From positions 1 to 64,000 of the forward strand of contig JAAHGF010000022.1 of assembly GCA_010672585.1 (NCBI GenBank): 64,000 bases of DNA, read 5' to 3'. The notes under the pieces are model-generated. The model made no database searches. It was not told the origin of the DNA and was given only the letters and a program-made list of their open reading frames with translations. Every line of letters starts with the position of its first letter. The first letter of the stretch is position 1. The position numbers and the translations under genes were made by a program. This stretch comes from Okeania sp. SIO1I7. Its GTDB lineage: Bacteria; Cyanobacteriota; Cyanobacteriia; Cyanobacteriales; Microcoleaceae. Below, in pieces: positions 377 through 60,034 of this stretch.

Positions 377-1984
377 CTATCCTCCCAAACCTAAAACATT
401 CTGTAATAACATTTGGTCTTCACCTTTGACTTGAAAGCGTCCACTCTCAATATCTCTAATCCAACTTTGACTTTTTCCCAGCATAGTTGCCAACTGTCTC
501 TGACTTAACTGCTGACTTTTTCTAGCAGTCATAATCTGTTCCCCACAGATCGCAGCCAGCTTTTTTGTTCTTTTGCGCTTATTAGAATAACGTAACTTTT
601 GTTTTTCAAAATCTGCTAAGTGTTTATCCCATTCTTCGGGCAATTTAAACCAGAGGATACGAGCGTTTAATAACATATTCCACTTACCTCTGGGGCCGTT
701 ATCTGTTAATCTTGTACTTTTACTACCATCATCAATCCAGAAATCTAAAGCTTCTTCACCATCATCAGGTAGAGCAGCTAACTTTGCCCACATTGGCTGA
801 ATTTCCTGGGGGTAAGTGACGGGGTCAAATTCTGGCTTAAGTCCATAATGATTGAGAACTTCCAAATCACTTTCAAAAGTTCTAATTAGTCGTTTTCGCT
901 CATCCCTAGAAGAAGATGCTCGTATCACTTTTTGTTCGCCATAAGCTACTCGCATTAGGGTAGGTACAGTCAACCGTTGTTCCCTACCCATTTTGGTTTT
1001 GAATAATAACCATAGTAGCATTCGAGCAGTACCTTCATGTTGCTGCCAAATACTCATTACTGTGGTTAATATAGACTGAGGCAAAATGCCGTATTGATAA
1101 AATGCTTTGCCTTCCTTGCAAGCTTCTCTATTGAGGAAATACTTAGCCCAAAGACCTGCTTTAACTCTAAAAGTAAGACCCACAAGATGTTTACATCCTG
1201 TAGAATCTTCAGAAAAGTGATGTTGAATGTCTAACAGATGCCATAATTGGTCTTCTGGTAATGAGAACGCATTAATTCTGCCCTGTTGAGGCCAATCAAT
1301 AGTAGTAGTAATATTACAAGGTTGTTGAGCTAAGTTTTTAATTAAACTCAGTTTAGTTGCTTTCGATAAGTCTTTGCGTTTTTCTAACCCTAAGTATCTT
1401 TCAATTTGTTGGTCATCGATCGCAAATTCTTGCTCCCATGGTTTATCAATAACTGCTGCATGAGCAGCATAAATTAGGTGGATACAAGCTGCTCTGATAT
1501 CCATTGCTGGTATATCTGTGACTTTGATGGCACCATCATTTATAATTTTAGATGAATACTCCACATCTTTGATGCTGAAACTGATTGAACCCTGACCTTG
1601 TTTAATAGTACGCTGGTAAATCAATTTACCTTCTGCATTCACTGTCCAAGGTAATGATTCTCTTTGCGTCAGAATGTTGCAAGCTTCCCAGACCGCGATC
1701 GAAGAAGCAAAAGGACTATGCTTGCCATTGGGAAATAAATTAGAGCTTGTGGGTGTTCTTGTCTCAGCTTTATATCTACCTTTTTTGGCTTTAGTGGGAA
1801 CAGGACTACTAATAGAACAGTGAATTACACACTGAGGTTCTTCGTAATAACCCTCACAGCTATTACATAGATCGGGATTAATGGAGTATTGTTCATCTTC
1901 TATAATTATTGCACCTGTTGGGCACTGCATTTGGGGTATACAGGTGGCACATGAGGTGCAGTTTTCAGTGATTTTATGAGTCAT
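377..1984 (-). CDS. cnfR: CnfR/PatB-type oxygen-responsive activator of nif genes
   Basis: A 535-residue protein with a bacterial ferredoxin-like N-terminus and a C-terminal helix-turn-helix. Cysteines at 9, 12, 15, 21 and 40, 43, 52, 56 are arranged as in a two-[4Fe-4S] ferredoxin, with a longer CX8C spacing in the second set. The middle (about 100-470) has no motif I can name. Residues about 475-530 form an XRE-like HTH (SQRQLATMLGKSQSWIRDIE). This fused layout is that of CnfR (PatB in Anabaena), which in non-heterocystous cyanobacteria is needed for nif expression under low oxygen. It stands upstream of fdxB on the same strand but is separated from it by about 4 kb of transposon debris. 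ATG start at 1984, with only a weak purine stretch before it. Confidence 0.9.
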   Translation of the reverse strand: MTHKITENCTSCATCIPQMQCPTGAIIIEDEQYSINPDLCNSCEGYYEEPQCVIHCSISSPVPTKAKKGRYKAETRTPTSSNLFPNGKHSPFASSIAVWEACNILTQRESLPWTVNAEGKLIYQRTIKQGQGSISFSIKDVEYSSKIINDGAIKVTDIPAMDIRAACIHLIYAAHAAVIDKPWEQEFAIDDQQIERYLGLEKRKDLSKATKLSLIKNLAQQPCNITTTIDWPQQGRINAFSLPEDQLWHLLDIQHHFSEDSTGCKHLVGLTFRVKAGLWAKYFLNREACKEGKAFYQYGILPQSILTTVMSIWQQHEGTARMLLWLLFKTKMGREQRLTVPTLMRVAYGEQKVIRASSSRDERKRLIRTFESDLEVLNHYGLKPEFDPVTYPQEIQPMWAKLAALPDDGEEALDFWIDDGSKSTRLTDNGPRGKWNMLLNARILWFKLPEEWDKHLADFEKQKLRYSNKRKRTKKLAAICGEQIMTARKSQQLSQRQLATMLGKSQSWIRDIESGRFQVKGEDQMLLQNVLGLGG

Positions 1985-21000: not shown

Positions 21001-21204
21001 AATAATTACCTATGTTCAGTTATCAGTTATTCAGTTATCAGTCATCGGTCATCAGTTATCAGTCATTAGTCATTAGTTATAGCACTTGGTATTTAGATAC
21101 CTGAGATTGCTAAATAGTGAAACTCAGCCAAAGATTACTTTTAACTTTTGACTTTTAACTTCTATTATTACTTTTGACTTTTGACTTTTGAATTTTAACT
21201 TCTA
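21001..21204. repeat. Short simple repeats between the two mos genes
   Basis: 204 bases of CAGTTATCAGTTAT-like and ACTTTTGACTTTTAACTT repeats. No promoter or terminator can be distinguished; the spacer is probably transcribed through. Confidence 0.5.
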
Positions 21205-22044
21205 TCAGTTATCAACATAAATTTCTGTGCCGATATCTTCACCATTAAGAGCACGAGTTAAGTTGCCTTTTACCAATCCATTAATGATGCGAATAGAACG
21301 GCGGTTCTTAGCAATTTCCATGAAGTCTAACACAGGACGTTCTACCACCACATCTTGTAAGTCTAACTCTTTTAATTCCTTCACCGAAATTCTTTTGATA
21401 AACTTAGCACTGGGATCTTTTTTCGGATCGGCAGTATATAACCCTTCCTCATCTTTGATGAAAATCATTGATTTTGCACCAAAAACTTCACTAACTAAAT
21501 AGGAACCAGTATCAGTTCTATGGGGAGGAATACGGCCAATTTTAGGATTTTCATGCCAAAATGTATAGGGAGGCATTCCAAAGAAAATCACAGCTCCTCT
21601 TTCTTTTAAATAGTGCGCCATTTGCCCAAACTGCACTGGTTCAATAAAAGGAATACCATACTTTGCTAGCAGATAATAAAGTATCCGAGCGTTTTGCATA
21701 CTCACAAAAGTTCCTAATACACTTAAAACTCCTGTGGGTAGTCCTAGATCTACTCCCACACTGTAAGCATGACGAGCGCGAGTACCTCCACCCGTACCAA
21801 GAATCATTTCATGGCTGCCTAAATTTTCAGCTATTTCTTCTATTAAAGGAAATACAGCAGCTTTACCTCTATCTATAAAGCTTTGTCCGCCAATTTTCAA
21901 TACATTTGCACTGGGTAAAATCTTAATCGGTGCTTCTTTTTCTGTTTCGGATAAAACTTGTTGGTTACTGAGGGAACCTGTTACTAAAGATTTACCTAAT
22001 TCCGAAAGTAATTGACTGTCTTTGACTGGAGTTTGCAGATTCAT
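21205..22044 (-). CDS. mosB: Molybdenum storage protein subunit, MosB-like
   Basis: 279 residues. LKIGGQSFIDRGKAAVFPL, GTGGGTRARHAYSVGVDLG, MPPYTFWHENPKIGRIPPH and FIKDEEGLYTADPKKD match Azotobacter MosB (IKIGGQSVIDRGRAAVYPL, FVKDEDGLYTANPK) closely. The C-terminus has IINGLVKGNLTRALNGEDIG, nearly the MosB sequence VVNGLVPGNLTRALAGEHVG. It is clearly paralogous to the next gene downstream (20170), and together they could build a mixed storage particle. Established knowledge: Mo storage protein is best known from Azotobacter and some other diazotrophs. Inferred: the pair buffers molybdate imported by ModA/ModBC for FeMo-co synthesis by the nif cluster on the same DNA. Confidence 0.82.
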   Translation of the reverse strand: MNLQTPVKDSQLLSELGKSLVTGSLSNQQVLSETEKEAPIKILPSANVLKIGGQSFIDRGKAAVFPLIEEIAENLGSHEMILGTGGGTRARHAYSVGVDLGLPTGVLSVLGTFVSMQNARILYYLLAKYGIPFIEPVQFGQMAHYLKERGAVIFFGMPPYTFWHENPKIGRIPPHRTDTGSYLVSEVFGAKSMIFIKDEEGLYTADPKKDPSAKFIKRISVKELKELDLQDVVVERPVLDFMEIAKNRRSIRIINGLVKGNLTRALNGEDIGTEIYVDN

Positions 22045-39192: not shown

Positions 39193-40731
39193 TTAACGAA
39201 TCAAGTCAAAAGATGTATCGTTAACACCTAGCTCCATGCTACCACGGTCTAACTCATCGAGGATAGTATTAACGATCCAGTTGAGTAGATTGAATGCGCC
39301 CTTATATCCTAAGATAGAATAACGGTGCTGGTGGTGGCGATCGAAGATAGGATAGCCGATACGTACTAATGGAGTACCAGTGTCACGTTGGAGGAACTTA
39401 CCATAGGAGTTACCAATTAACAAGTCAACTGGCTCAGTATCCAACAGTGAACGTAAGTGCCACAAGTCCTTACCGATCCAAACTGTAGCTTCTTGGCCAT
39501 TGGGGTCAGCAGCTAATAATGCCTTAGCTTCTTCTTCAAAGCCTTGAACATTACCATTAGTTACAACAACGTGAACAGGCTGCATACCTAACTCTAGAGT
39601 GAAGTTCAACAAACCTAATACATGGTCAGGATCGCCGTAGATAGCAATGCGCTTACCGTGTAACCAAGCTTGAGAGTCAGTGATAGCATCAACTGCACGA
39701 CCACGCTCAATTTCTAGCTCTTCAGGAATAGCCTTACCAGTTAATTCAGACAATCCCATTAAGAACTCATCAGTACCACGGATACCGATAGGACGATAAG
39801 TAACTGTTGTTTGACCACCTTCTTGCTCTAGGTACTCTAGAGTCTTAGGAGTGGAATACTTCTGGAAGGAGATAGTAGCCTTAGCATTGATGGAATCAGC
39901 ACCTTCTGCCAAAGTTGTACCACCGTTGTACATTTTGAATTCACCCAAGTTAGGAGAATCAAAGCTCTCAGCGTTGTCTGCTAAAATGGTGTTAGGAACA
40001 TCCATCAAAGATAGAATATCCTTCAAATCCCGGATGTTGCCAATGTAAGGATCGAAACCAGGGATGAAGTTGATTTTACCGTTAGTAACTCCCTTCTTCT
40101 TACCTTCAGTCAGAGCTACCAAAATACCCTTGAGCATATTATCATAGCCTGTGATGTGAGAACCAACAAAGCTAGGAGTATGAGCAAAAGGAACAGGGAA
40201 ATCTTGAGGAACTGCACCTTGATTCTTGGAGGTAGTGATGAATGAACCTAAGTCATCTCCAATTACCTCTGCCATACAAGTTGTGCAAAGAGCAATCATT
40301 TTTGGCTTGTACAAAGCATAAGAGTTTGCCAAACCATCAGTCATGTTCTTGAGACCACCAAATACCGCAGCATCTTCAGTCATAGAAGAGGAAACAGCTT
40401 GGAATGGCTCTTTGTAGTTACGAGTTAAGTGGGAGCGGAAGTAAGCAACACAACCTTGAGAACCATGTACAAAAGGTAGAGTTCCTTCAAAACCTGCTGC
40501 TGCAAAGATTGCACCTAAAGGCTGACAAGCTTTAGCAGGGTTGATAGTTAGAGCTTCACGAGCAAAGTTCTTTTCGCGATATTCCCAAGTCTTTGTCCAC
40601 TCACTAACTTTTTTGATTTCTTCCTTGGAAGGACCGCCTTCAAATTCTCTCTTGCGCTCGAACATTTCTTGGTATTCTGGTTCTTGGAAGAGTTGAAAGT
40701 GGTCTTTGATTTTGTCTACATTCTGACTCAT
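39193..40731 (-). CDS. nifK: Nitrogenase MoFe protein beta chain
   Basis: 512 residues from ATG 40731 ([15 protein letters not shown]), the usual cyanobacterial NifK start; the frame is open 63 codons further but that part is repeat-derived. P-cluster cysteine regions are visible: [32 protein letters not shown] and [16 protein letters not shown], with [13 protein letters not shown]. The C-terminus ends NDTSFDLIR, the conserved Arg end. With NifD it forms the alpha2beta2 dinitrogenase. It follows nifD after 231 bases containing GAAGGAAGAAGG repeats and a GCGGGCAAGATGCCCGC hairpin. Confidence 0.97.
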
Positions 40732-40962
40732 GGTGTTTATTCCTCTATGGTATTGTTCGGAAGGAAGAAGGAAGAAGGAAGAAGGAAGAAGAATCTCAAC
40801 CACAACTTCTAACTCCCAATTCCTAGTCAAATTTTTGTTTGTGTATTGGGAATGCCGTAGTGATGGCATTACCACATTTCCTAATAAATTTACAGCAGAT
40901 TCCACCTTGGTGAGGTACACTCACGCGGGCAAGATGCCCGCACTGGAAACTTTTGACTTCTA
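40732..40962. repeat. nifD-nifK spacer with repeats
   Basis: Holds GAAGAAGGAAGAAGGAAGAA (about 40761-40792) and an element with GCGGGCAAGATGCCCGC (40925-40941) flanked by TTTACAGCAGATTC. A related, inverted element is found at 46625-46735 between nifB and nifS. Confidence 0.6.
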
Positions 40963-42417
40963 CTAGCTAGCTTGCTTCCAAGGAGCTTTGATTAAGTTCC
41001 AAGTTGGGCTGTTGAGAGCTAGATCCATGTCACGAGCGAAGATAGCGAATCCATCATAACCGTGATAAGGACCAGAATAATCCCAGGAGTGCATTTGACG
41101 GAATGGCATACCCATTTTCTGGAATACATACTTCTCTTTAATTCCAGAAGCAATTAAATCTGGCTTTAATTTCTTAGCGAATTCCTCGAACTCATATCCA
41201 CTAACGTCATCATAGATTAGAGTACCTTCTTGAGCATACTCAGCAGTACGCTTGTAGTCATCACCGTGACCGAACTCATAACCAGTACCGATAACTTCCA
41301 TTCCTAGATCGTCGAAAGCAGGAATAACGTGACGTGGACGTAAACCACCAACCATCATCATTACTTTCTTACCTTCTAAACGAGGACGATACTTAGCAAT
41401 TACTGCATCAGCTTGTGCTTGATATCTGGCAATTACTTTCTCTGTGTTTTCTTTGATAGTATCGTCGAAGTAAGAAGCAATCTTCCGTAGAGACTTAGCG
41501 ATTTGAGTAGGACCGAAGAAGTTGAACTCAGTCCAAGGTATACCATACTCTTCTTCCATGTAACGGCAGATGTAGTTCATGGAACGGTAGCAGTGGATGA
41601 GGTTTAAATTCACCCTAGGAGCCATGAATACTTCGTTGTAAGTACCGTCACCTGTTGCTTGGCTAACTACTCTTAGGCCGATTTCATCTAATAATAGACG
41701 AGAACTCCAACCGTCACCACCGATGTTGTAGTCAGCGATTAAGGATACATCATAAGGAGTAGTTTCAAAACCGATCTCTTCGTTAGTGATTTCAGCGGAA
41801 GGCTCGTATACCCAGTCACGCACTGTGTCGTTAGCGATGTGGTGACCTAATGACTGAGAAACTCCACGGAAGCCTTCACAACGTACTGGAACAACTGGCT
41901 TATTGAGTTCTTTAGCAGCTTTTCTAGCTACTGCTTCGATGTCATCACCAATTAGACCTACTGGGCATTCAGATTCAATTGTGATACCAGCATTTAGAGG
42001 GAATAATTCTTCGATTTCGTTCATGATTTTGGCGAGTTTTTTGTCTCCACCAAAAACGATGTCTCTTTCTTGGAAATCGGAAGTGAATTGCATTGTACCG
42101 AAGGTATCAACACCAGTTACACCGTTGTAGTAGTTACGACGACCTGCCCAGGAGTAGTAACCGCAACCAACAGGACCGTGACTGATGTGAACCATGTCCT
42201 TAACAGGACCCCAAACAACCCCTTTTGCTCCAGCAAAAGCACAACCACGGGTTGTCATTACACCAGGAACTGATTTCACATTAGACTTAACGCCACAGTC
42301 AGATCCTTCTTCTAAAACATTAAGGTGCTTTTTCCGTCTTTTAGCAGCTTTCTCGGGATAAGCGTCTAAGACTTCTTGAATTAACTGTTTGTTCTGTTCG
42401 ATTTTTTCGGATGTCAT
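40963..42417 (-). CDS. nifD: Nitrogenase MoFe protein alpha chain
   Basis: 484 residues from ATG 42417 ([11 protein letters not shown]), preceded by AAGGAGAT; an upstream in-frame ATG would add 27 non-homologous residues. P-cluster cysteine sites are in [28 protein letters not shown] and [15 protein letters not shown]. The FeMo-co ligand Cys is in [17 protein letters not shown] and the ligand His in [16 protein letters not shown]. It is continuous: there is no excision element as in heterocystous strains. It is co-directional with nifH (189 bases upstream) and nifK. Confidence 0.97.
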
Positions 42418-42463
42418 GTTACATATCTCCTTTCGGATATTTGATTTAGTGTTTGAGTTTTGT

Positions 42464-42514
42464 ATTAGCGGGGGCAGGTGCTTTTCTACTATCTGCAAAA
42501 CCTGCCCCTACATA
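42464..42514 (-). promoter_or_regulatory. Stem-loop between nifH and nifD
   Basis: GGGGGCAGGTGC...AAAACCTGCCCC forms a stem of about nine pairs in the 189-base nifH-nifD spacer. Such structures between nifH and nifD often mark mRNA processing or attenuation that makes nifH message more abundant; that role here is inference. The arms also belong to a common dispersed repeat (TAGGGGCAGGT). Confidence 0.5.
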
Positions 42515-42606
42515 CAAATTAATTAATACAAGACTCACTACTACTTGTTTCTTGAGATGGGGTGCGCTCTGCACACCCCCCACTTTTGTGCTAGAAGATT
42601 TTCAGC

Positions 42607-43880
<1,274 letters not shown>

Positions 43881-44756
43881 TTACGCTTCTTCTACTATAA
43901 GACTTTCGCTTACTCGTTCTTTTAATGTAGCTTCGATCGCTCCTTTCAATGTCGCCATTGCACTACCGCAAGAACCACAGGCTCCTTTTAGTGTTACTAG
44001 CACGCGATCGCCATCTACATCGAACAGTTCAACATCTCCTCCATCTTCCGCGAGAACAGGCCTCACTTCTTGTTCTAATACTTGTTGAATTAATGTAATT
44101 TTTTGTAGATTTGTTAGTTTGCTGGCTGGTTTTGTAGTTGTAGGAATTTGTTGTGCTGTAGGTTCTGGCGTTTCGTCAACCGATGCGATTAGATCGTCAA
44201 TATCTGCCAGACAGGAACCACAACCACCACCTGCCTTCACATAGTTTGTTACTTCTTCCGCTGTTTTGAGGTTGTTTTCCCGAATTACTCGCTTAATCTT
44301 GTTTTCGGTAATTGCGAAACAGCTACAAACTAATGCTCCTTCGTGGTCTTCTTCGTGAACTTCTACTTCAATACCTTTATATTTAAAAATTGCTGCTTCT
44401 AATGCTTCCTCTCCCATCACCGAACAGTGCATTTTTTCTTCTGGCAGCCCTCCCAGGTATCCCGCAATATCCTGGTTTTTAATCTTCATAGCTTCGTCTA
44501 TGGTTTTGCCTTTTAGCATTGCTGTCAGAGCAGAAGATGAAGCGATCGCACTAGCACAGCCAAAGGTTTGAAATTTTGCATCTAATATTTCGCCGGAGGC
44601 TTCATTAACTTTGAGGTGTAGGCTGAGAGCATCTCCACACGCTATACTTCCTACCTCACCGCTAACAACCTTTTCCCCTTCTTTCTGGTCTGTAATGGTT
44701 CCTTGATTTTGGGGGTTATAGAACAAGTCCATTACTTTTTCAGTATATTCCCACAT
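43881..44756 (-). CDS. nifU: Fe-S scaffold protein NifU
   Basis: 291 residues with three domains. The IscU-like domain (about 1-125) has GSIACGDALSL, QTFGCASAIASSSALT and KMHCSVMGEEAL (the three scaffold cysteines). A central [2Fe-2S] Bfd-like domain (about 135-185) has LVCSCFAITENKI and AGGGCGSCLADID. A C-terminal Nfu domain (about 215-291) has LKGACGSCGSAMATLKGAI. NifU receives sulfur from NifS and hands [4Fe-4S] clusters to NifH and NifB. It is 414 bases downstream of nifS. Confidence 0.95.
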   Translation of the reverse strand: MWEYTEKVMDLFYNPQNQGTITDQKEGEKVVSGEVGSIACGDALSLHLKVNEASGEILDAKFQTFGCASAIASSSALTAMLKGKTIDEAMKIKNQDIAGYLGGLPEEKMHCSVMGEEALEAAIFKYKGIEVEVHEEDHEGALVCSCFAITENKIKRVIRENNLKTAEEVTNYVKAGGGCGSCLADIDDLIASVDETPEPTAQQIPTTTKPASKLTNLQKITLIQQVLEQEVRPVLAEDGGDVELFDVDGDRVLVTLKGACGSCGSAMATLKGAIEATLKERVSESLIVEEA

Positions 44757-45170
44757 AGCCCTTATTGTTTAGAACACCCTAAGTTTTACTGATGAAAGTT
44801 GCGCTTTTTCTTGAAGATTACTACTCAGTTTGTAGAGCAATAATTTATTATTTTTAGGAGGTGGGTTAAACTTGATATTATTAGTATTGCACATTTTTGA
44901 GAATCAAGCAACCCTTTTTTCCTTTTTTTTGTTTCAAGTAATCAGCGTTTAAAGTTACTCACCACCCCTAGAAACTATATTATTTATATTCTAGGTTAAG
45001 GAAGATTTTTTCTGTTAATCCTGCTACAATTTTGTGAGTTATTAGCGTGAGATATACCCCTCTTTAAGCTATACAATGATTGTTGCGGAATCAACAGAGT
45101 TTTTCTGTTATTTTTGCTACAAAAATGTAGCGTAAATAAAAGTGTAGCAATCCTTAAAATATTGTAAATT
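44757..45170. other. nifS-nifU spacer
   Basis: Contains the hairpin-forming words GATTGTTGCGGAATCAAC and imperfect repeats of TTTTGCTACAAAAATGTAGC around 45010-45150. No gene is seen; an 87-residue frame across this region is antisense-free noise extending into the nifS 3' end. Confidence 0.45.
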
Positions 45171-46373
45171 TTAGGATTGTACAGTTGCTTCTTGTCGTTC
45201 TTGCAACCAATTAGCTTGGTCATTTTTAAAGGGTGATAAAGCCCGGAGACGCTCCACAATAGTAGGCATCACTGCTAACACTTCCTCAACCTCTTGGCGG
45301 GTTGTGTAACGTGATAAAGAGAAACGAATGGAGCCATGCAAAATTGTGTATGGCAGACCCATTGCCCGCAAAACATGAGACGGTTCCAAAGACCCAGAAG
45401 TACAAGCAGAACCAGAAGAAGCACAGATACCATAATGGTTCAAATGCAGCAATATTGCTTCTCCCTCAATAAATTTGAAGCCAATATTAGTAGTATTAGG
45501 CAACCTTTCAATAGGATGACCATTAACAGCACAATCAGGAATAGCAGCAAGAATACTGTTCTCCAAATAATCACGCAGTTCCCGTTCCCGGTCGATATGT
45601 GCCAAATGCTCCTGCGCCAATTCACAAGCTTTACCCAGAGCAATAATACCAGGCACATTTTCCGTACCACCACGGCGACCGCGTTCCTGATGTCCGCCAA
45701 TTAATAACGGACGGAACCGAGTACCACGACGTACATATAAAGCAGCAATACCCTTGGGTGCGTGCAATTTGTGACCAGAGATAGCCAGCATATCTATAGT
45801 GCTATTCTTCATATCCAGGGGAATTTTCCCTGCTACTTGCACCGCATCAACATGAAACAGCGCACCATATTCCTTAGCTATCTGCCCAATTTTCTCTATG
45901 GGGAAAATCACGCCTGTTTCATTATTAGCGTACATAACGGAGACTAAGGCGGTATTACCTGTAATAGCAGCCTCTAGTTCCATTAAATCTATCATTCCTT
46001 GGCTATCTACTGACAGATAAGTAACGGTATAACCCTGCTTTTCCAAATGCTTGCACAGATTCAAAACTGCCGGGTGTTCTACCTGAGTAGTAATAATATG
46101 ACGTTTATTTGGTTGGGCAGTGAGAGCAGCTCGAATTGCAGCATTGTCACCCTCAGTACCACAACTGGTAAAGATAATTTCTGTATCCTGGGCACCTAAT
46201 AAAGCTGCAACTTGCGATCGCGCTTTTCTCACAGCTTTACCAACTTGTCCGCCAAAAGTGTGCATACTAGAGGGGTTGCCATAAAACTCACTCAGGTAAG
46301 GCAGCATTTCCGCTAGCACTGCATCATCTACCTTAGTGGTAGCATTATTATCGAGATAAATGGTTTGTTGCAT
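45171..46373 (-). CDS. nifS: Cysteine desulfurase NifS
   Basis: 400 residues of the class V aminotransferase family. Seen: the start IYLDNNATTKVD, TSCGTEGDNAAIRAAL, the PLP lysine in AISGHKLHAPKG, GGHQERGRRGGTENVPG and the active Cys in ASSGSACTSGSLEPSH. NifS releases sulfur from cysteine for NifU. It is separated from nifB by 415 bases of repeats where most cyanobacteria carry fdxN. nifP in the divergent arm would supply O-acetylserine for the cysteine it consumes. Confidence 0.96.
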   Translation of the reverse strand: MQQTIYLDNNATTKVDDAVLAEMLPYLSEFYGNPSSMHTFGGQVGKAVRKARSQVAALLGAQDTEIIFTSCGTEGDNAAIRAALTAQPNKRHIITTQVEHPAVLNLCKHLEKQGYTVTYLSVDSQGMIDLMELEAAITGNTALVSVMYANNETGVIFPIEKIGQIAKEYGALFHVDAVQVAGKIPLDMKNSTIDMLAISGHKLHAPKGIAALYVRRGTRFRPLLIGGHQERGRRGGTENVPGIIALGKACELAQEHLAHIDRERELRDYLENSILAAIPDCAVNGHPIERLPNTTNIGFKFIEGEAILLHLNHYGICASSGSACTSGSLEPSHVLRAMGLPYTILHGSIRFSLSRYTTRQEVEEVLAVMPTIVERLRALSPFKNDQANWLQERQEATVQS

Positions 46374-46788
46374 AGCTGACTAAATACTTGAGGTGATTGT
46401 TGTAGAGATGTTGAAGGAAGAGGGAAGAAGGAAGAAGGAAGAAGGAAACATCTTCCATTGCTTGAGTTTTAAGCTTTTGATATGTTCCCGTCTGCAGAAG
46501 GAAGAGGGAAGAAGGAAGAAGGAAGAAGAAAACATCTTCCATTGCTTGAGTTTTAAGCTTTTGATATGTTCCCGTCTGCAGAAGGAAGAAGAAAGAAGGA
46601 AACATCTTTCATTGCTTGAGTTTTACAGCGTATTTCATATAAGTAAGGTACACCAGTCGCGGGCAAGATGTCCGCACTACAAAAACTTTACCATTCTTAT
46701 ATGTACCTCATTTACCTAAAATCTGCTGTAAGCTAATATCAAATAATTGCCTGAAACTTTTGACTTCTAACTTCTGACTTCTTTTGAC
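46374..46788. repeat. nifB-nifS spacer: tandem repeats in the place of fdxN
   Basis: ACATCTTCCATTGCTTGAG blocks start at 46448, 46532 and 46602, alternating with GAAGGAAGAAGGAAG runs and TTTTGATATGTTCCCGTCTG. Next, 46625-46735 is an element with TTTACAGCGTATTT at one end, TCTGCTGTAAG at the other and GCGGGCAAGATGTCCGC inside. Frames at 46348-46719 on both strands are products of these repeats. No fdxN ferredoxin (CXXCXXC) can be found. Confidence 0.75.
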
Positions 46789-48261
46789 CTATGCAGGTTG
46801 TATTAGTTTGATGAACTGCTTGTAAAAGTCTAAAGCAACTGTTTCAATTACATCGTAGCTCTCTACTACATCTATTCCTGCATCAAGTACCTTTTCTTTA
46901 GGACTCTCACCAATTTTAGAAACCAGCACAGCTTTGCAATCAGAAATTGCTTTGATGATATTTTCCAAACTGCCTTCTTCACCATAACCACCTAAGCAAT
47001 AGTGGTCAACTTTGCGGTGAGCAATAAATCTAGCTTTCACACCATCAACTTCATAAATCATAAACTCTTTAGCATGACCGAAGTGTTGATTGACTAATCC
47101 GTTACCCTTACTTGCTACTGCTAGTAGTATTGGTGGACCAGCTTGAGCAACTGCTTCTTTTACCTGAGTTTCTGCCTTAGCTGTTGCTAGTTTGTTGCGG
47201 AAACCTTCAATACCAGCATGGAATTCTTTACGCTTTTCCAAGTCATATTCTGGAGTCATCTCCATGATTGCTTCTTTTGTGAATTCCTTACTGCGGTCTT
47301 CACCTAACAGACCAACTGCATCTGCACGACATTGACGACAGTGGCGCATCATTTTCATGCCACCTACATCACATTTGTCTTGCAATGTTTTCAATTCTTC
47401 AGTGGTAGGGCCACGCTGACCATTTAAGCCAAAGTAAGTGCCGTGTTCTGGTGAAGAAATCAGAGGCATAATATTATGAATAAATGCACCCTTAGAACGA
47501 ACAATTTTATTTACTTCTTCTAAATGTTCATCATTGATGCCAGGAATCATTACTGAATTAACTTTGCAGAGAATATCAGCTTCTCTGAGTAAGTCTAGGG
47601 ATTCCATTTGCCTTTGATGCAGAATTTTTACGCCTTCAATTCCTCTATAGCGTTTCCGGCGATAATGAACCCAAGGATAAATCTTTACCCCGATTTCAGG
47701 GTCAACCATATTAATCGTTAAGGTAACGTGGTCAATGTTGAGTGCTTTGAGTCGATCTATATAATCGGGTAAAGCTAGACCATTGGTTGACAAGCAAAGC
47801 TTGATATCTGGTGCTTTCTCAGCTACAAGCTCAAATGTGCGGAATGTTTTCTCTGGGTTCGCTAATGGGTCTCCTGGGCCAGCAATTCCCATAACAGTCA
47901 TTTGGGGAATTTTACCTGCAATTACTAGAGCTTTATGAGCTGCTTCTTCAGGAGTTAGCAGTTCACTAACTACGCCGGGACGACTTTCGTTGGCGCAGTC
48001 GTATTTACGGTTACAGAAATTACATTGAATATTGCAAGCTGGTGCAACAGGAGCGTGCATCCTCGCATAATGGTGATGCGCTTCTTGACTGTAGCAAGGA
48101 TGGTTCGCAACGCGCTCTTGAATACTGGCGGGAAGTTGCTGTTCGGTAGTAGTTCCGCAACCCTTTGACACGCAGCCTCCGGATTTCTTTTCCGTGCTTT
48201 TCGTGGTTTTTGCGAAGCTGTCTACTGTTGGTTGGGAAGATAGTTCTGTTGGCTGTAACAT
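46789..48261 (-). CDS. nifB: Radical-SAM FeMo-co core synthase NifB (with NifX-like tail)
   Basis: 490 residues. The radical SAM motif is [14 protein letters not shown] (near 77-90), followed by [10 protein letters not shown] and later [16 protein letters not shown]. Residues about 370-490 form a NifX-like domain ([22 protein letters not shown]). NifB fuses two [4Fe-4S] clusters with carbide insertion to make NifB-co. It is the first gene of the minus-strand nif cluster and faces nifP across a 1.2-kb regulatory region with a mirrored GTAC module. The 5' region [10 protein letters not shown] has cysteines typical of the family N-terminus. Confidence 0.96.
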
Positions 48262-48452
48262 CTAAGTTTCCACTATTGTTGGGTAGCTGTCGCCGTGGGT
48301 GACGGATTACTCGCGTCGATACACTTTGTTTCCTGGGACGGTTATTTTCCGTCTGCGGTTATAGGTGTCCGGCGTTATAGTTTTTATATCAGTGGCCTTT
48401 AAACTGTTACTTTCAAAAACCCCCATTAGTATTGATTACGATCATTAGTTTT

Positions 48453-48659
48453 GTACTCAGGTTTGTATCATCTAATAATTAAAATCAAATCGAAGTATCT
48501 AATTTTTTTATTGGGGTATAGGTACTTGTATTTTTTAAGTGGGGTACAAGTATTTATGGGGTAATGGTACGGAGTTTTATGTACTCGTTATAAAGCCTAT
48601 ATATATCAGGAATTAAACTACTTTTTTAACCTTGATTTTGTCTCTATACTCCTGTACTC
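48453..48659 (-). promoter_or_regulatory. Putative nif regulatory module driving nifB (left half of mirror)
   Basis: Plus-strand order: GTACTC (48453), TTGGGGTATAGG (48511-48522) running into GGTACTTGTATTTTTT, GTACAAGTATTTA (48544-48556), GTAC (48567), GTACTC (48581-48586) and a further GTACTC at 48654. Reversed, it reads towards nifB, whose ATG is 249 bases beyond TTGGGG. The same words in the same order and nearly the same spacing face nifP on the other side. CnfR or another activator is the obvious candidate binder; this is inference. Confidence 0.7.
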
Positions 48660-48887
48660 ATACACCCCTTATTCAACCTAACCTTTTATTACTGTATACA
48701 ATGTATCAATTTTTGGCAAGTAGGCTAGATTTATCTTAATTTTTCTTTAAAGTTTGATCATCATTTTTCCAGGTACACAGAGATAAGGCAGAAAGAAAAG
48801 GAGCAAAGTTGTCAAGAATAAGGCTTTTCATCACTAATTATCTAGATTTAATATAGCTGCACTTTAGAGTAATCTAAATTAACAAAA

Positions 48888-49104
48888 TCCTGAGAAATAT
48901 GACCAATTTCCTTAACAATTTTCTGTGGCCAAAGACTAAATGCAACTTTTTCGCTTTTGTTATAAATTTAGCAGTTTTTCAGAATTAATGTCAGTAATTT
49001 TCAATGGCTCATCCTGAGAAATATTTTCAATTTTCTGTAGCTAAAAATAAAAATGCAACTTTTTCGCTTCTGTAATAAATTTAGCAGTTTTTTCAGAATT
49101 AAGT
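48888..49104. repeat. Two ~100-bp direct repeats in the centre of the nifB-nifP region
   Basis: TCCTGAGAAATAT begins both copies (48888 and 49012); both share ATGCAACTTTTTCGCTT, TAATAAATTTAGCAG-like and TTTCAGAATTAA blocks, ending at 48990 and 49104. Both lie between the two mirrored modules. Confidence 0.75.
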
Positions 49105-49164
49105 AGATAATTTTTAATATTTTTTTTAATCTTTTCACCAGAATTATGAGTTAAACTATAAGTT

Positions 49165-49360
49165 GAGTACAAGTTTCAATTTCAGCACAAACCCCCCTTA
49201 AAAACTTCAAACCTGCTGACACACAAGCATCAACCTTGAGTACAAAAATGCTAGTACATTGTTCATTAAATACTTGTACACGCTACAAAAAATACTAGCA
49301 CCTATACCCCAAAATATATTTCAAACATCTATCTACATTCATTTTCAGTCTATTGAGTAC
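49165..49360 (+). promoter_or_regulatory. Putative nif regulatory module driving nifP (right half of mirror)
   Basis: Plus-strand order: GAGTAC (49165), GAGTAC (49238), GTAC (49254), TAAATACTTGTAC (49267-49279), AAAAAATACTAGCACC, CCTATACCCCAA (49301-49312) and GAGTAC (49355). It is the reverse complement of the nifB-side module in word order and spacing. The nifP ATG is 167 bases after CCCCAA. A further TACTTGTAC lies inside the nifP frame at about 49504. Confidence 0.7.
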
Positions 49361-49479
49361 AAGCTTAATATATTTAATAAAGATTGACCGTTAAATATTG
49401 GTTAGTAGTTTACAAGGCACTTGATATAAAAATTGAAAAGCAAACGTCCTTGTCAAACACGGAACCCCCTATTTAACCC

Positions 49480-50325
49480 ATGACCACCTTACTAACTAGA
49501 AATACTTGTACATTACCTAATAAAACTAACACTTCTAATTCCAAAAAAAGCCAAGGTAACTTTAGGTCTCAATTCAAACTCAAAGCTAATACTGAAACTG
49601 CTCAACAAAATCTACCACTAGAATCAGGTAGAGACCTTTCTTCTTCTCGTCGTCATAGGTTTTGGTATAAATATTTTACCTTCCCAGAGCTAGATACAAT
49701 CTTAACAGATTTTAGAATGATCTTTGAGCGAGACCCCGCAGCACGCAACTGGGTTGAAGTCTTATGTTGCTATCCTGGTTTGCACGCTCTAGTACTACAT
49801 CGTCTCGCTCATTGGTTACATCTTCAGAGCATTTCTCTAATTCCACGTTTAATTTCCCATCTTGGACGGTTTTTAACAGGAATTGAAATTCATCCTGGGG
49901 CAACAATTGGACAGGGAGTATTTATCGATCATGGCATGGGAGTAGTTATTGGTGAAACTGCAATCATTGGAGAATATTCTTTAATTTATCAAGGTGTCAC
50001 CCTTGGTGGTACGGGAAAAGAAATTGGTAAACGCCATCCCACTATTGGCAAAAATGTTGTAGTTGGTGCTGGTGCTAAAGTACTAGGTAATATCAATATC
50101 GGAGATAATGTCCGCATAGGTGCTGGTTCAATTGTATTGAATGACGTTCCTTCTGAATGCACCGTTGTCGGTATACCTGGTCGAATTGTTTCTAAATCTG
50201 GCGAACGAGTTGGACCTCTTGAACATGGACGGTTACCAGATACACAAGCTACCGTAACTCGCGCTTTACTTGACAGAATTGAGCAACTAGAACAAACAAT
50301 TGCAAACCTTTATCTGCAACACTAA
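49480..50325 (+). CDS. nifP: Nif-linked serine O-acetyltransferase
   Basis: 281 residues. The catalytic part from about residue 70 ([18 protein letters not shown]) matches CysE/NifP, followed by left-handed beta-helix hexapeptides ([39 protein letters not shown]) with the catalytic His in FIDHGMG and RHPTIG. It makes O-acetylserine for cysteine used by NifS. Residues 1-65 ([13 protein letters not shown]...) are an unusual polar N-terminal extension compared with about 250-residue relatives; no better in-frame ATG lies before residue 80, so the true start is uncertain. It is the first gene of the plus-strand arm. Confidence 0.9.
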
Positions 50326-50328
50326 GGA

Positions 50329-50610
50329 ATGACAACGATGTATAGCAATCATAATCCTAACCCTCAAGACTTGATTACAGTTGTGAATCTTTCTCAAATC
50401 GATCGTTGGTTCGTTCATCAGCGCTTACAAGAACTAATGATTAATAGTTGGTGTCCTACTAGCGGTGAGTTATTAGTAGAAATTAATAATTTAACTGATG
50501 CTATTCTTGTCCACAGCATTGTTAAGCAATTTGTTGCTCCTCGCAAAGAGTTAGTGGACTGGTTAGAAAGATGTTGGCAAATGGAAGTTTTTCCTAAATA
50601 CAACCATTGA
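50329..50610 (+). CDS. Asr1405/Asl0597-family small protein
   Basis: 93 residues. NLSQIDRWFVHQRLQELMI, VEINNLTDAILVHSIVKQF and RKELVDWLERCWQM match the Asr1405/Asl0597 family of small cyanobacterial proteins, which I recall as often close to nif genes; no function is known to me. It starts 3 bases after the nifP stop, so it is translationally linked to nifP. An alternative ATG lies three codons in. Confidence 0.75.
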   Translation: MTTMYSNHNPNPQDLITVVNLSQIDRWFVHQRLQELMINSWCPTSGELLVEINNLTDAILVHSIVKQFVAPRKELVDWLERCWQMEVFPKYNH

Positions 50611-50646
50611 TTTAATGAACAATTTTCATTGGTAATAGATATGGAG

Positions 50647-50813
50647 TTACCGAATAATTAATAATTAATAATTAATAATTAATAATTAAATAATTCTGGT
50701 TTAAAGTCTCCCCTTTTAAGGGGAAGAAAAGAAATAATATTTCCTGATATTCAATTCCGTAACGGTTTTAACCAGAGGTAATTATCAATTATCCATTATC
50801 AATTATCAATTAA
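50647..50813 (-). repeat. Repeat family A, copy 8, inside the nifP operon
   Basis: Starts TTACCGAATAATTAATAATT and ends TTATCAATTATCAATTAAT, with TCTCCCCTTTTAAGGGG, GAAATAATATTTCCTG and CAATTCCGTAACGG inside. The AAGCGGTCG segment is missing. It separates the Asr1405/Asl0597-family gene from the DUF2949 gene. Confidence 0.8.
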
Positions 50814-50862
50814 TCAACTTCCTTATCTGTTACCTGTACTTTAATACTTAAGGATAATAACT

Positions 50863-51093
50863 ATGGAAGGCGATCGCAAAACAACTCTATTTCTTAATTT
50901 TTTGCAGGAAGAATTAGCTATTTCTGCTGCAGCAATTTCTGTAGCACGGAAACACAGTGAAGCTTCTTGTGGACCTCTACCAATGATTCTCTGGAAGTTT
51001 GGCATGATTTCTCTCCAACAACTCCAACAAATTTTTGATTGGCATGAGTCTTACGATAGCAATACTTTCTGCTATGATCGACCAATTAGTTAA
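50863..51093 (+). CDS. DUF2949 protein
   Basis: 76 residues. FLNFLQEELAISAAAISVA, then GPLPMILWKFGMISLQQL and IFDWHES are the pattern of DUF2949, a short, probably soluble cyanobacterial family of unknown role. Good upstream purines (AAGGATAATAACT). Placement between nifP and nifZ repeats the usual cyanobacterial accessory order; a nif link is inferred from context only. Confidence 0.75.
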   Translation: MEGDRKTTLFLNFLQEELAISAAAISVARKHSEASCGPLPMILWKFGMISLQQLQQIFDWHESYDSNTFCYDRPIS

Positions 51094-51461
51094 AAGATGA
51101 ATTATAAAGTTTATCTAAATAAAAGCTTTCTCATTGATAAACCAATGTTTAATAATGATAAATACTTTTAGATGTTGCTTGAATGTAACTTTTACTATCC
51201 TAGAGATAGCTACTTTTTTTCCAATAATTGATATGTCTTGAAGAAGGCAGAAAGCAGAAGGCAGAAAGCAGAAGGCAGAAGGGAAAATTGCATGGGGGAT
51301 AGTCTTCAACACGCCACTTTGTGTCTGATAACCCCAAACAATTTTAAGCACCCCCGTTGACTGATAACTGATAACTGATAACTGATAACTGAAATGAAGG
51401 TAGGGTATTAAACCCGCCACAAAAAAGATAATATTTAGCTCAGTATTAGGGAGGCAGCTAC
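51094..51461. repeat. Spacer before nifZ
   Basis: Contains GCAGAAGGCAGAAAGCAGAA-type runs (51245-51285) and CTGATAACTGATAACTGA repeats (51361-51398). A 127-residue minus-strand frame is spurious. A TTAGGGAGG motif precedes nifZ. Confidence 0.55.
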
Positions 51462-51728
51462 ATGAAATTAGATGAGGCGATCGAATTAGATGGACCACCA
51501 GTATTTGAATTGGAACAAAAAGTAAGAGTTCGTAAAATAATTCGTAATGATGGTACTTTCCCTGGAAAAAATCGAGGTGACATTCTTTTGGAAGGGGGAG
51601 AGGTCGGTTATATTTGTGGCATAGGCACCTTCTTACAAAAATTTTATATTTATTCCGTACATTTTATTAAAAAAGGAATGATTATCGGTTGTCGTAAAAA
51701 TGAAATAGAAGTTGTAGAGGAAAATTAA
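51462..51728 (+). CDS. nifZ: NifZ
   Basis: 88 residues with FELEQKVRVRKIIRNDGTFPG, GGEVGYICGIGTFLQKFYIY and FIKKGMIIGCRKNEIE, the NifZ domain. NifZ helps form the second P-cluster of the MoFe protein. GGGAGG lies before the ATG. Its TAA overlaps the nifT ATG (TAATG), so the two are translated together. Confidence 0.95.
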   Translation: MKLDEAIELDGPPVFELEQKVRVRKIIRNDGTFPGKNRGDILLEGGEVGYICGIGTFLQKFYIYSVHFIKKGMIIGCRKNEIEVVEEN

Positions 51729-51928
51729 TGAAAGTAATCTTACGAAATAATGCAGCAGGAAATTTAGAAGTTTATGTTGCTAAAAAAGATTTGGAAGAAG
51801 AAGTTGTTTCACAAAAAATTGATGGAGATATTAAAGTTTTAACTTTAACAAATGGTTGGGAATTATCTATTCCTAAAGACCAACCAGAAAAACTACCTTT
51901 AACTATCGATGCTAAGAGATTAAACTAA
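51728..51928 (+). CDS. nifT: NifT/FixU
   Basis: 66 residues. MKVILRNNAAGNLEVYVAKK and LTNGWELSIPKD are the FixU/NifT signature. Its role is uncertain and usually dispensable. It overlaps nifZ by one base and is followed by a strong terminator, so it ends this operon; nifV, which follows in several other cyanobacteria, is not here. Confidence 0.95.
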   Translation: MKVILRNNAAGNLEVYVAKKDLEEEVVSQKIDGDIKVLTLTNGWELSIPKDQPEKLPLTIDAKRLN

Positions 51929-51961
51929 AAGTTTCCTTTCCATAGTTACTCCTTATTGTGT

Positions 51962-52005
51962 AGCCACCAAATGAGATTTATCTCTTATTTGGTGGTTTTT
52001 TTTAC
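51962..52005 (+). terminator. Intrinsic terminator of the nifP-Z-T arm
   Basis: CCACCAAATGAGAT pairs with ATCTCTTATTTGGTGG around a 3-base loop region, followed by eight Ts. It begins 34 bases after the nifT stop. It is the clearest terminator in the window. Confidence 0.92.
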
Positions 52006-52032
52006 AGGGAACAGGGAGTGGGGGGAAGTGTA

Positions 52033-52226
52033 ATACCAGTTTGAAAAAAGAATGTTACGAATAATCTAGTCAACTAAAATATTTCATCTAAATGTACAAG
52101 GTATTACAATTGATGATTTAATGGTAAAAAATGATGATAATAGCAGCTTCTACTGACTACTGACTATTGACTATTGACTACTAGAAGCAGTCCAAATATT
52201 TGTAACAAACATTTATCAAATTGGTA
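52033..52226. repeat. Repeat family B (TA-flanked MITE), copy 1
   Basis: ATACCAGTTTG at the left and ATCAAATTGGTA at the right bound 194 bases and are flanked on both sides by TA. Internal blocks GAAAAAAGAATGTTAC and TGTAACAAACATTTATC recur in the copy at 56368, in the opposite orientation. Confidence 0.75.
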
Positions 52227-53249
52227 TAAGATTTGACACGGAGACGTGGTGACGTAGCGTGTCAGTGATATCAAATCCGGTTAAACAGCCATAGAATGGT
52301 TAAGTTAGGAGGAGTTAACCCACCCGCGGGCCCCGACCGTGGAGGCAGGGTCTATTTATTGTCACGCGAGCGAAAAATTGATGGGGGGATGGGAACCCAC
52401 CCCTAGCCCCTCCCCCTCCCAGGAGGTGAATTTGGGGGGATGGCCAGATGGGAGATGGAGATATTTGTATATTTGCACAATTAAATGTACTTCATATTAA
52501 TATTCTCCTCAGGCAATGAATTAGCCCTGCTCCCAGGAGGGGAAGTCAGGAGGACCGAGTCAGGAGGAGAGAGAATTACAAAGATGAGTGTAGTTATGAC
52601 GATTGGAGAATTTTTTTATGTCCAATAAAACGGATTTGATATGACATCCTATCTCCCTTTCTTGGTTTCTCTGTGTCTCCCCCTCTCCGTGTCCTCGTGT
52701 GGGGACTGTGGGAGTAGGGGGGAAAGAATTGATAATTTATGTGCAATAATTAATTTGATTTTTTATTATTGGAGATGTCTATTGAGTTTTGAATTCAAAT
52801 GGATCTGCTCAAATCAACTCAATTTCCCCGACTTGACAAGTGCGATAGCCAAAATCTTCTCAACTACTTTGAAAATTATTAGGAACTCTTACTCTATCAT
52901 AAACAATGGGATTATAAATACTTGAAATAGTTTCCGAATTGTTAGTTTGGGCATTGATTGTAGGAAGGTGAGAGTGGGTTTGAAGGTTACTAGAAGAATT
53001 CATAAAAATTTTAAGTATTTGTGATATTTGTCTAAAATTATGATATTATAATACGCATTTTTATAATTTTGTGTAGCCTTACATAAAATTGATATAAAAA
53101 AATTTTTTTTCTTTTCTATCCTTGATTGGTAGAAGCTTGAAAATTTAATTATTAGGTTTAATTATTCGGTAGTCCTATTCGCGTAATGGTATACGGGAAA
53201 CGTAATGGTACACGGGAAAAAGGAATATTTGGCACTTTCATGCCTCTTC
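52227..53249. other. Gene-free region after the nifP-Z-T arm
   Basis: About 1 kb without a credible gene. Contains a CCCACCCCTAGCCCCTCCC palindromic repeat (52390-52432) and CTCCCCCTCTCCGTGTCC low-complexity DNA; a 94-residue frame (52641-52925) opens in that and has no recognisable domain. A ~70-base block with TTTTCTATCCTTGATTGG appears at 53100-53150 and again at 53315-53360. Confidence 0.5.
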
Positions 53250-53373
53250 AACAATTAATGATTAATTATTAATAATTACTTCTCCTTAAAAAGAAGAGAA
53301 TTGACGCTTAAGGAAAATTTTTTTCTTTTCTATCCTTGATTGGTAGAAGCTTGAAAATTTAATTATTCGGTAA
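53250..53373 (+). repeat. Repeat family A, copy 9 (short form)
   Basis: Starts CAATTAATGATTAATTATTA, has the ACTTCTCCTTAAAAAGAAG stem and ends TTTAATTATTCGGTAA. Confidence 0.65.
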
Positions 53374-53419
53374 AAGTCAAAAACGGGCAAACCAAAAGTT
53401 TTTTCAGACCTAAAAATAA

Positions 53420-54328
53420 TTACTGAAGAGTGAATAGTAAACTAACTCCTACTACTGCAACTAATACTCCTATAAATGACCTAATACTTATTTTTTCTCC
53501 CATTTGAGCAGCAATAGGAATTATAAATATTGGGCTGGTAGCTAAGAGAGTTTGAGCAATACCTGCGGGAGAAAATTTGAGGGAAGTTTGCTGTAGCCAA
53601 ATACCTAAATAAGTACTGCTAAAAGCTGTAATAAAAATTGCTCCTATAAGTTTCATTGACCAGTTAAATTCCTCTGATTTATCCTGTTTTATTTTCTGAA
53701 AAAATAACAATAAAACAACAATAATTGTTCCTCCAATTAAACGAAATAATGTGCTTAGTAAAGGATTAATATCTGAGGAAAGCAAAGCAAAACGAGAGAT
53801 AACTGCACCACTAGAATTAGCTGTTGCTGCTAATATTGCCCAGAGTATTCCTTGTTTGATATTAACATTACTAATTGCTGTACCGGGAGTTCTTTCTGAG
53901 ATTACCCAAGCTACACCTCCAACTGTAATTAAAATTCCACACCAAGCACCAAAAGTTAATTGTTCTCCTAAGAAAATTAAAGCTAATAAAGCTGTCATGG
54001 GAGGAGATAAAGTTTCCATTAGCAGAGTTCTTCTTGCACCCATATTTTTGAGGGCAGAAAAAAAGGCGGTATCTCCTAAACCAATGCCAAGAATACCGCT
54101 AATGAGAAATAAATTAATAGTAGTTGGGTTGACTTCTACCTGAAGTTTGTTACTAATAATTAAAGTTATAAAAATCAGAGCGATCGCTATTAAACCTTTG
54201 AATAAATTTAATTTTAGGGGAGATATTTTTTGCCCAAGTAAGCTATAAGCAGCGGAAGATGCTGCCCATAAAAATGCACCGGTTAATGCTGCTAGTTCGC
54301 CTTGAAAATTAGTTATCCACAGTTCCAT
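53420..54328 (-). CDS. EamA/DMT-family transporter
   Basis: 302 residues and ten predicted membrane helices in two EamA repeats: the first has GALTGAFLWAASSAAYSLL and ALLALIFLGEQLTFG, the second ILWAILAATANSSGAVISR and GIAQTLLATSPIFIIPIA. These are inner-membrane metabolite exporters; substrate unknown. It stands alone on the minus strand and has no link to nif by sequence. Confidence 0.85.
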   Translation of the reverse strand: MELWITNFQGELAALTGAFLWAASSAAYSLLGQKISPLKLNLFKGLIAIALIFITLIISNKLQVEVNPTTINLFLISGILGIGLGDTAFFSALKNMGARRTLLMETLSPPMTALLALIFLGEQLTFGAWCGILITVGGVAWVISERTPGTAISNVNIKQGILWAILAATANSSGAVISRFALLSSDINPLLSTLFRLIGGTIIVVLLLFFQKIKQDKSEEFNWSMKLIGAIFITAFSSTYLGIWLQQTSLKFSPAGIAQTLLATSPIFIIPIAAQMGEKISIRSFIGVLVAVVGVSLLFTLQ

Positions 54329-58801: not shown

Positions 58802-60034
58802 TAACAAATCAAATAAACTGAGTTGCACCCCCGTCAGACCATCTCCACAAGCTTTTTCTTTAACCGTTTGCCCCACGGCAATTAAACCTCACCCACCCCT
58901 CTTGCTCCCCTCCCGGGAGGGGATGGGGGTGGGTGCAGCAGCTATATCACGATTTATTTGATATCCACAACTGCTGCAATTATGTTTTCTATCAGAAAGT
59001 TTTTTCTTATTAATATGCCCACATTGAGGACACTCTTGAGATGTGTAATTCTTGTCAACTTTTCCATAATACTTACCTCTTTTCCAGCATATATAAGGAA
59101 GTATTTCATTGATAAATTGACCGATACCACTGTCTAAAGATTGTTTTCTAACAATACCTTTAGACCAAGACTTAAAGTTAATATCTTCAACGAAAATATT
59201 ATCAGCTAAATCACAAATTTGATGAGCTAATTTAAAATGCCAGTCACGTCTAACATTAGCTATTTTTTCATATAATCTAGCTATTTTATTCTGGAGTTTT
59301 AACCAATTATTTGACCTACTTTTTTTATTCTTAAGCTTCCTTTGCAGCAATTTAAGCTCGCGTAGTTGACCTAATAATAACTTAGGAGATTTGACTAACT
59401 TCCCTGTTGAAGTAGCAATAAAAGATTCTATTCCTGCATCTACACCTAATGATACTTTTCCTATTGGATTATCTGGTACTAACTCAGATGAAGTAAAAGT
59501 AATCATCAAATAATAACCAGTTACTTTTTTAACTATTCTAGCTTGTTTAGCTTGAAAAAAATCTGGATATAGTCTACTTTGTCTAATCTTAACCCATCCT
59601 AATTGAGGCAACTTGACTTTACCGCAACCTAAACAATTTTTCAGCATTGTAGGAAAAACAAAGCTTCTCAACTTTTTCTTAAATCTAGGGAAGCCTTTAC
59701 CCAAACTTTTCATTTCAGAAAATGCTCTATCTAAAGTCTTTAAAGTTTGTTGTAAAACTTGGGCATTAATTGACTTTAATCTAGGATTAGTTTTCTTAGC
59801 TATTGTTAGGCTTTTAGCTTGATGATTGTAATTAGGATAAGGAGTATCAGCAGGGATAATATATTCAGAAATAATTGAGCAACTATTAATTGCTGCTTTC
59901 CTTGAACTTAACCAATCTTTACGCTCTCTCAAAGCATAATTGTACACACTTTTACAAACATCAAGAATCTGATTAATTTCCATTTCTTGTTGTTTGCTTG
60001 GCTTAAGTTTGTACTGGTAAGTTAAAGTAATCAT
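58802..60034 (-). pseudogene. tnpB: Zinc-finger TnpB with C-terminus split by a palindromic repeat
   Basis: The open frame (58889-60034, 381 residues) has RuvC Asp199 (LGVDAGIES), Glu283 (FVEDINFKSW), zinc finger CPQCGH...CSSCG (335-356) and Asp363 (NRDIAAA). Then a CCCACCCC...GGGGTGGG palindrome adds PTPIPSREGSKRGG and a TGA. After it a TnpB-like C-terminus resumes in frame on the same strand (AVGQTVKEKACGDGLTGVQL, SLFDLLPS, stop at 58802 region). All catalytic residues are present, so activity is not excluded. No tnpA is nearby. Confidence 0.8.
58889..58938. repeat. CCCACCCC/GGGGTGGG palindromic repeat inside tnpB
   Basis: ACCCACCCCTCTTGCTCCCC and its near-inverted partner around CCCGGG make a long hairpin. 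The same repeat type occurs at about 6736, 17370, 30231, 34884 and 52390. Confidence 0.8.

Follow-up and report, generated by a model that had tools for sequence, protein, structure and literature searches.

CnfR is the master activator of the nif genes in Leptolyngbya boryana and has been used as a part when transferring nif genes to other phototrophs (PMC5943405, PMC6428710). In L. boryana, the genes that run in both directions from the nifB-nifP region are activated by CnfR, a truncated nifB promoter is described as retaining every one of the conserved motifs (I to IX) that CnfR recognizes, and NifHDK bands were seen in Synechocystis equipped with the nif cluster of L. boryana when cnfR was included (CN1) but not in its absence (SN5) (PMC5943405). 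Three conserved sites thought to be bound by CnfR are reported for nifB1 and nifB2 of Anabaena variabilis as well as for nifB of L. boryana, the former 2 promoters having an extended −10 without a −35 (PMC8510180). Here, we describe 2 promoter modules of approximately 280 bp located between nifB and nifP of Okeania sp. SIO1I7, each oriented outward to its own gene, in a stretch of 64,000 nucleotides (positions 1 to 64,000 of contig JAAHGF010000022.1), referred to as the window. Very probably, the blocks serve as activator-binding arrays for the divergent promoters of nifB and nifP, within the class of CnfR cis-elements known from L. boryana and A. variabilis.

The likeness to the L. boryana nifB/nifP element (Tsujimoto 2016, cited in PMC5943405) includes, as far as the excerpted descriptions go, the promoter pair, its divergent arrangement, an array of short motifs upstream and a CnfR gene in the same cluster, whereas the helical-turn spacing classes and half-modules reported below were not met in those excerpts. 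With the CnfR-dependent nifB1 and nifB2 promoters of A. variabilis and their sites CS1 to CS3 (PMC8510180), the window shares conserved sites upstream of nifB, an extended −10 and the lack of a −35. Conserved blocks are present in the window as well (A, B-D, and E, defined below) but lie nearer to the predicted start than stated for the A. variabilis sites and, unlike in A. variabilis, a second copy of the module serves nifP.

Architecture of the two modules

The initial annotation had described the blocks 48511-48586 and 49238-49312 as inverted copies of one pattern, and their local alignment score of 37 bears this out, the maximum being 19 both in 2000 dinucleotide shuffles and in comparisons with 225-bp segments from elsewhere in the window. 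A repeat finder independently returned inverted arms at 48511-48556 and 49267-49312 (46 nt, 83% complementary). As had also been noted, 24 of the first 26 bases of the blocks are identical, a 13-base identity, GTACAAGTATTTA, is found at 48544 on the plus strand and 49267 on the minus strand, and further GAGTAC words are located 73 bases upstream of each block (word A, 48654..48659 on the minus strand and 49165..49170 on the plus strand) and between each block and its gene (word E, 48453..48458 on the minus strand and 49355..49360 on the plus strand). The proposed common spacing of GTAC words (14, 22 or 23, and 22 bases) is complete only on the nifB side, with offsets of 2, 75, 89, 112, and 134; on the nifP side the offsets are 2, 75, 89, and 111, and the fifth word reads GCAC.

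The modules compared below follow the order of word A (GAGTACA), approximately 73 bp, word B (GAGTACA), 3 repeats AAATACTnGTACC spaced by 22-23 bp, and word E (GAGTACA). The direct repeats following B resemble AAATACTnGTACCC, repeat D carries the extension ACCcctACCC, and the tract after word E consists of TAATnAAT and then AATAAAT. On the nifB side (minus strand), word B (GAGTAC) occupies 48581..48586, repeat C (AAATACTTGTAC) 48544..48555 and repeat D with its extension (AATACAAGTACCTATACCCC) 48513..48532; the D-E spacing is 74, and the extended −10, TGATATAAA, at 48383..48391 lies 67 bp from E. On the nifP side (plus strand), the corresponding positions are 49238..49243 for word B (GAGTAC), 49268..49279 for repeat C and 49291..49310 for repeat D with its extension (AATACTAGCACCTATACCCC); the D-E spacing is 64, and the extended −10, again TGATATAAA, at 49422..49430 also lies 67 bp from E. 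From word B to the extended −10, the modules cover 48376..48587 on the minus strand (103.3 bits, E 3.6e-31) and 49236..49436 on the plus strand (98.9 bits, E 8.4e-30) when scored with model R1 (see below), of which both are members. Transcription is predicted to start near 48376 for nifB and near 49437 for nifP. With the start placed 7 nt past the −10, the distance from the end of the E GAGTAC is 77 bp on both sides, and the array from A to E spans approximately 77-283 bp upstream of the predicted start. The 2016 study of Tsujimoto is said to give a fixed distance to the start site, of 76 bp. The structure had thus been recognized only in part: neither the extended −10 that both sides share, near-fixed in its distance from the proximal GAGTAC, nor the difference of about one helical turn between the 2 modules had been noticed.

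The observation that the words are kept while the spacers have diverged holds, with 64 of 70 word positions being identical between the window modules vs 40 of 138 spacer positions, although this contrast is descriptive and partly built in because the words were chosen for their conservation. Between the nifB sides of the window and of Trichodesmium (L003), 67 of 71 word positions and 97 of 148 spacer positions are identical. For GAGTAC by itself, the enrichment in the window is only mild (27 occurrences vs 16.1 expected, with 1 of 100 shuffles as high).

Conservation of the layout and co-occurrence with CnfR

For comparison, we used 80 named nifB loci, all titled cyanobacteria, which were the best 80 of 578 and thus the nearest ones. 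With a seed profile built from 9 module sequences of the window and L001-L004, we searched the DNA upstream of nifB, up to a distance of 2 kb, at the 80 loci and in the window. Of these 81 regions, 5 of which had contributed to the seed, 80 gave a match at E < 0.001 in the first pass, and at the exception, L035, the module lies 2.6-2.9 kb upstream of nifB; thus, all 80 loci carry the module. Iteration brought the total to 103 modules, of which 80 belong to the nifB side and 23 to the divergent side. nifP is located downstream of 19 of the latter, including that of the window, and no nifP match was found at the divergent-side modules of L080, L047, L009, and L012. Five nifP loci have no divergent module within 2 kb (L005, L006, L011, L052, and L071), and a scan of the whole loci revealed a minus-strand module farther out in each, the two modules of L052 being kilobases apart, at about −750 and −3785 from nifB. 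The comparison of intergenic regions suggested by the initial annotation, in which related strains without the words at these spacings were sought, yielded none.

The A-B spacing is 70-74 bp in 71 of the 74 nifB-side modules measured, and the C-D spacing is 23 bp in all 80 nifB-side and 21 of 23 divergent modules. Among 100 modules (3 of the 103 without a placed D or E were excluded), the extended −10, TGNTATAA, starts 65-69 bp past E in 97 and exactly 67 bp past it in 65, compared with 5 of 2000 shuffled downstream sequences having it within 63-71 bp. The modules without it at E+65 to E+69 are the divergent-side ones of L047, L009, and L012. The alignment columns preceding the extended −10 are unconserved, and no conserved −35 is found in them. 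D-E distances in the same modules fall into classes of 51 (n = 2), 61-64 (n = 29), and 71-75 (n = 69), with none between. The classes are about one helical turn apart, and such a stepwise pattern fits proteins bound to one face of the DNA. The D-E distance of the Trichodesmium nifP module (L003, L004) is 75 vs 64 in Okeania (window, L001, L002), and the reverse pattern is seen at L010 (62 on the nifB side, 74 on the divergent side) and L047 (62 and 72). No report of helical spacing at nifB was found in the open-licence literature.

Model R1, extending from B to the −10, comprises 53 modules (a diverse set of 58 was chosen from the 103, and 53 of these were aligned). In the 9.48-Mb genome of the window, R1 finds the 2 modules only, the next match being partial (E 0.015); for neither this candidate (L131) nor the following one (L132, E 0.11) does the next gene belong to a Pfam family. 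The other 4 genomes of the genus each carry the module pair, with one further weak match in G244. R1 matches are present in 17 of the 23 near genomes, counting that of the window, and the genomes without one are G248 (55% complete), G254, G038, G255, G125, and G223. Of 244 genomes of the phylum, 77 have a match at E ≤ 0.01, 48 of them a strong one (E ≤ 5.5e-10) and the other 29 a weak one. A CnfR match at E ≤ 1e-20 is present in 54 of the 244 genomes, including all 48 with a strong module, whereas a strong module is absent from all 190 genomes that lack a CnfR match (Fisher 1.2e-44, a statistic that ignores relatedness). Some genomes among the 244 contain the same DNA as named loci (of 22 compared, 5 had stretches of 100% identity), and several of these loci contributed to R1; R1 matches in such genomes are therefore not independent, while the CnfR count is independent. 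Weak matches (E 0.01 to 1e-5) of R1 and of the half-module model R2 (see below) in genomes that lack a CnfR match, often small ones from family f30, were taken as noise; the best reach 2.2e-5 for R1 (G210) and 1.4e-5 for R2 (G051). The presence of the module at 80 of 80 nifB loci, its co-occurrence with CnfR and the published CnfR dependence of the nifB and nifP promoters in L. boryana together support the earlier proposal that the module is cis-regulatory, is under selection and is likely bound by CnfR.

The 2 genes flanking the modules diverge from an intergenic region of 1218 bp. nifB (46789..48261, minus strand) matches NCBIfam TIGR01290 with 648.7 bits, and its product is 99% identical to NifB of Okeania sp. 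SIO2B3. The gene at 49480..50325 (plus strand) encodes a serine O-acetyltransferase of the cysE family (NCBIfam TIGR01172, 248.7 bits) and is named nifP because of its place. The cnfR/patB-like activator gene (377..1984, minus strand) lies approximately 46 kb from the modules in the same window and is single-copy, with 1 match in its own genome at E ≤ 0.001. Its product has an N-terminal 4Fe-4S ferredoxin-like region (model NF033683 at residues 1-65, scoring under the cut-off of that model) and a C-terminal helix-turn-helix (PF01381, HTH_3, residues 484-522). One of 2 TnpB-family genes flanking the nif cluster (2119-3363 and 58889-60034) adjoins cnfR. Mid-way in the intergenic region, between both modules, there is an imperfect tandem duplication of approximately 113 bp (48887-49118), and an 84-bp tandem repeat with 2.2 copies is located 3′ of nifB (46413-46601). 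Elsewhere in the window, nifE and nifN form one fused reading frame of 935 aa (34937-37744). An adjoining pair of amino-acid-kinase-family genes (20170-22044), which may resemble the subunits of molybdenum storage protein, shares its region with modA- and modBC-like genes.

Proposed CnfR binding and other explanations of the modules

We propose that CnfR binds several words of each module, namely the 3 AAATACTnGTACC repeats, about two helical turns apart, and the GAGTACA words A, B, and E, and that on words A to E it would sit on one DNA face, possibly as an oligomer. Because E is located at a near-fixed 65-69 bp upstream of an extended −10 that has no conserved −35, CnfR at E would recruit or hold RNA polymerase, presumably by contacting it, at low oxygen combined with nitrogen shortage.

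Several observations weigh against this reading. The match to motifs I-IX of L. boryana rests on promoter pair, position and architecture and is not letter by letter; the letters of the motifs were not found in the portions consulted of PMC5745016, PMC6428710, PMC8679911, and PMC11980358. The A. variabilis sites are placed 300-600 bp upstream of the start (PMC8510180), whereas the window array lies approximately 77-283 bp from the predicted start. The helical periodicity is not sharp, with a resultant of 0.81-0.87 that is flat across periods of 10 to 12, and the statistic ignores relatedness, although the modules share descent. Finally, 6 of the 54 CnfR genomes have no strong module. The CnfR match is partial in G002, G060, G201, G112, and G179 and nearly full length in G110; weak module matches are present in G002 (E 0.0071) and G060 (E 5.1e-4). 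G002, G060, and G110 encode a divergent NifB (46-48% identity), and G201, G112, and G179 have no NifB match at E ≤ 1e-30.

The module could instead be bound by another nitrogen or oxygen regulator, such as NtcA or ChlR, with CnfR acting only indirectly. NtcA is present in nearly all cyanobacteria. The module, however, follows CnfR, being strong in 48 of the 54 CnfR genomes vs 0 of the 190 others, and the NifHDK bands of Synechocystis described above appeared only with cnfR (PMC5943405), which makes control by another regulator unlikely. An action through RNA, by long-range pairing of the inverted arrays or as a structured leader, might be read from the 46-nt inverted arms, but no Rfam match was found in 40000-54000, the arrays are upstream of the predicted starts, and at some loci, e.g., L052, the modules are kilobases apart, so that we regard it as highly improbable. 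To the idea that the likeness of the modules is a functionless relic of a recent inversion or duplication we give next to no credence. Two inverted copies do share one intergenic region with an imperfect tandem duplication of approximately 113 bp in its middle, yet the spacers of the window modules are 29% identical vs 91% for the words, modules on both sides with the same distance to the −10 are found in distant cyanobacteria, and the words are conserved at all 80 related loci. A recent inversion was rejected on the diverged spacers and on the finding of both modules in distant cyanobacteria.

Half-modules and a proposed graded CnfR regulon

Partial R1 matches in other genomes cover repeat D and word E, and we refer to these as half-modules. 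Eleven of them, all in the heterocyst-forming family f6 (L124 and L142-L151), precede nifJ, the gene for pyruvate:flavodoxin oxidoreductase, which was recognized by Pfam POR_N in 8 cases and by tblastn to the L124 protein in L144, L148, and L149. A second model, R2, combines 20 half-modules, these 11 among them, and when the 244 genomes were scanned with it, 11 additional places emerged (E ≤ 1.1e-7) that are not part of full modules. All 10 of the new places examined precede nifJ (L169-L178) and the eleventh, G149:C380, is at a contig end; the 10 did not contribute to R2, but many of the half-modules in it are from the same family. Overall, the nifJ half-module is present in 21 of the 28 f6 genomes having a strong module, and it is not in the match lists for G046, G085, G097, G143, G168, and G227. 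In 22 f6 genomes, including all 21 with the nifJ half-module, the best module locus encodes NifB, and these loci are nearest to named loci of Nostocales, e.g., Nostoc, Anabaena, and Cylindrospermum. By regular expression, D of the nifJ half-modules was placed at −70 in 12 and at −60 in 8, and none was found in L178.

Other half-modules precede a nitrogenase-associated ArsC-like gene in 5 genomes (L127, L133, L137, and L179, and L129, where it is the second gene downstream), cupin-like and CBS-CP12 genes beside cnfR (L125 and L128), a gene of the dinitrogenase-cofactor family, likewise beside cnfR (L152), and a gene of unknown kind (L130). In L138, a CBS-CP12 gene has a longer, degenerate match upstream of it. 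HsdR_N genes are located 3′ of 2 half-modules, L126 and L129. As the nitrogenase-associated gene comes next in L129, HsdR_N may be incidental; the stretch examined of L126 contains no nitrogenase-associated gene. No gene was assigned to the partial matches L139, L153, and L154, the first genes of the latter 2 being outside the family search. In none of the 20 half-modules checked does TGNTATAA occur at +65 to +69. In the genome of the window, R2 finds nothing under E 0.01 beyond the 2 known modules (150 of 9724 first-look candidates were scored), and no match in the E ≤ 10 list adjoins its PFOR gene (C33:43283-43975, minus strand). An additional full module was found in 4 f6 loci (L122, L134, L136, and L140), where it is followed by a conserved CCCCCC..GGGGGG leader that has no Rfam match. 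In L122, L134, and L136 the leader is followed by a gene of approximately 140 aa, the L122 copy of which has no Pfam match.

The nifJ half-module suggests that CnfR controls electron supply, a link that is not made in the consulted portions of the open-licence papers PMC7699953 and PMC4284476. On balance, we favor a graded CnfR regulon, in which full arrays with a near-fixed extended −10 would drive nifB and nifP, whereas half-modules, composed of one D repeat and word E at 2 spacings 10 bp apart, would recruit CnfR to electron supply and accessory genes, i.e., nifJ in heterocyst-formers, the gene for the ArsC-like protein, and the cupin and CBS-CP12 genes beside cnfR. The spacer steps of about one helical turn would reflect a need for CnfR subunits to align on one DNA face. 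The observation is a true one and most likely rediscovers a known class of elements in a genome for which we have so far met no report, the new aspects being the quantitative layout and the prediction of nifJ as a CnfR target in heterocyst-formers. The layout rules, that is, word order, 23-bp repeats, one-turn spacer steps, and approximately 67 bp to the −10, are usable and testable, and the nifJ half-modules predict a direct link, through CnfR, between nitrogenase synthesis and electron supply.
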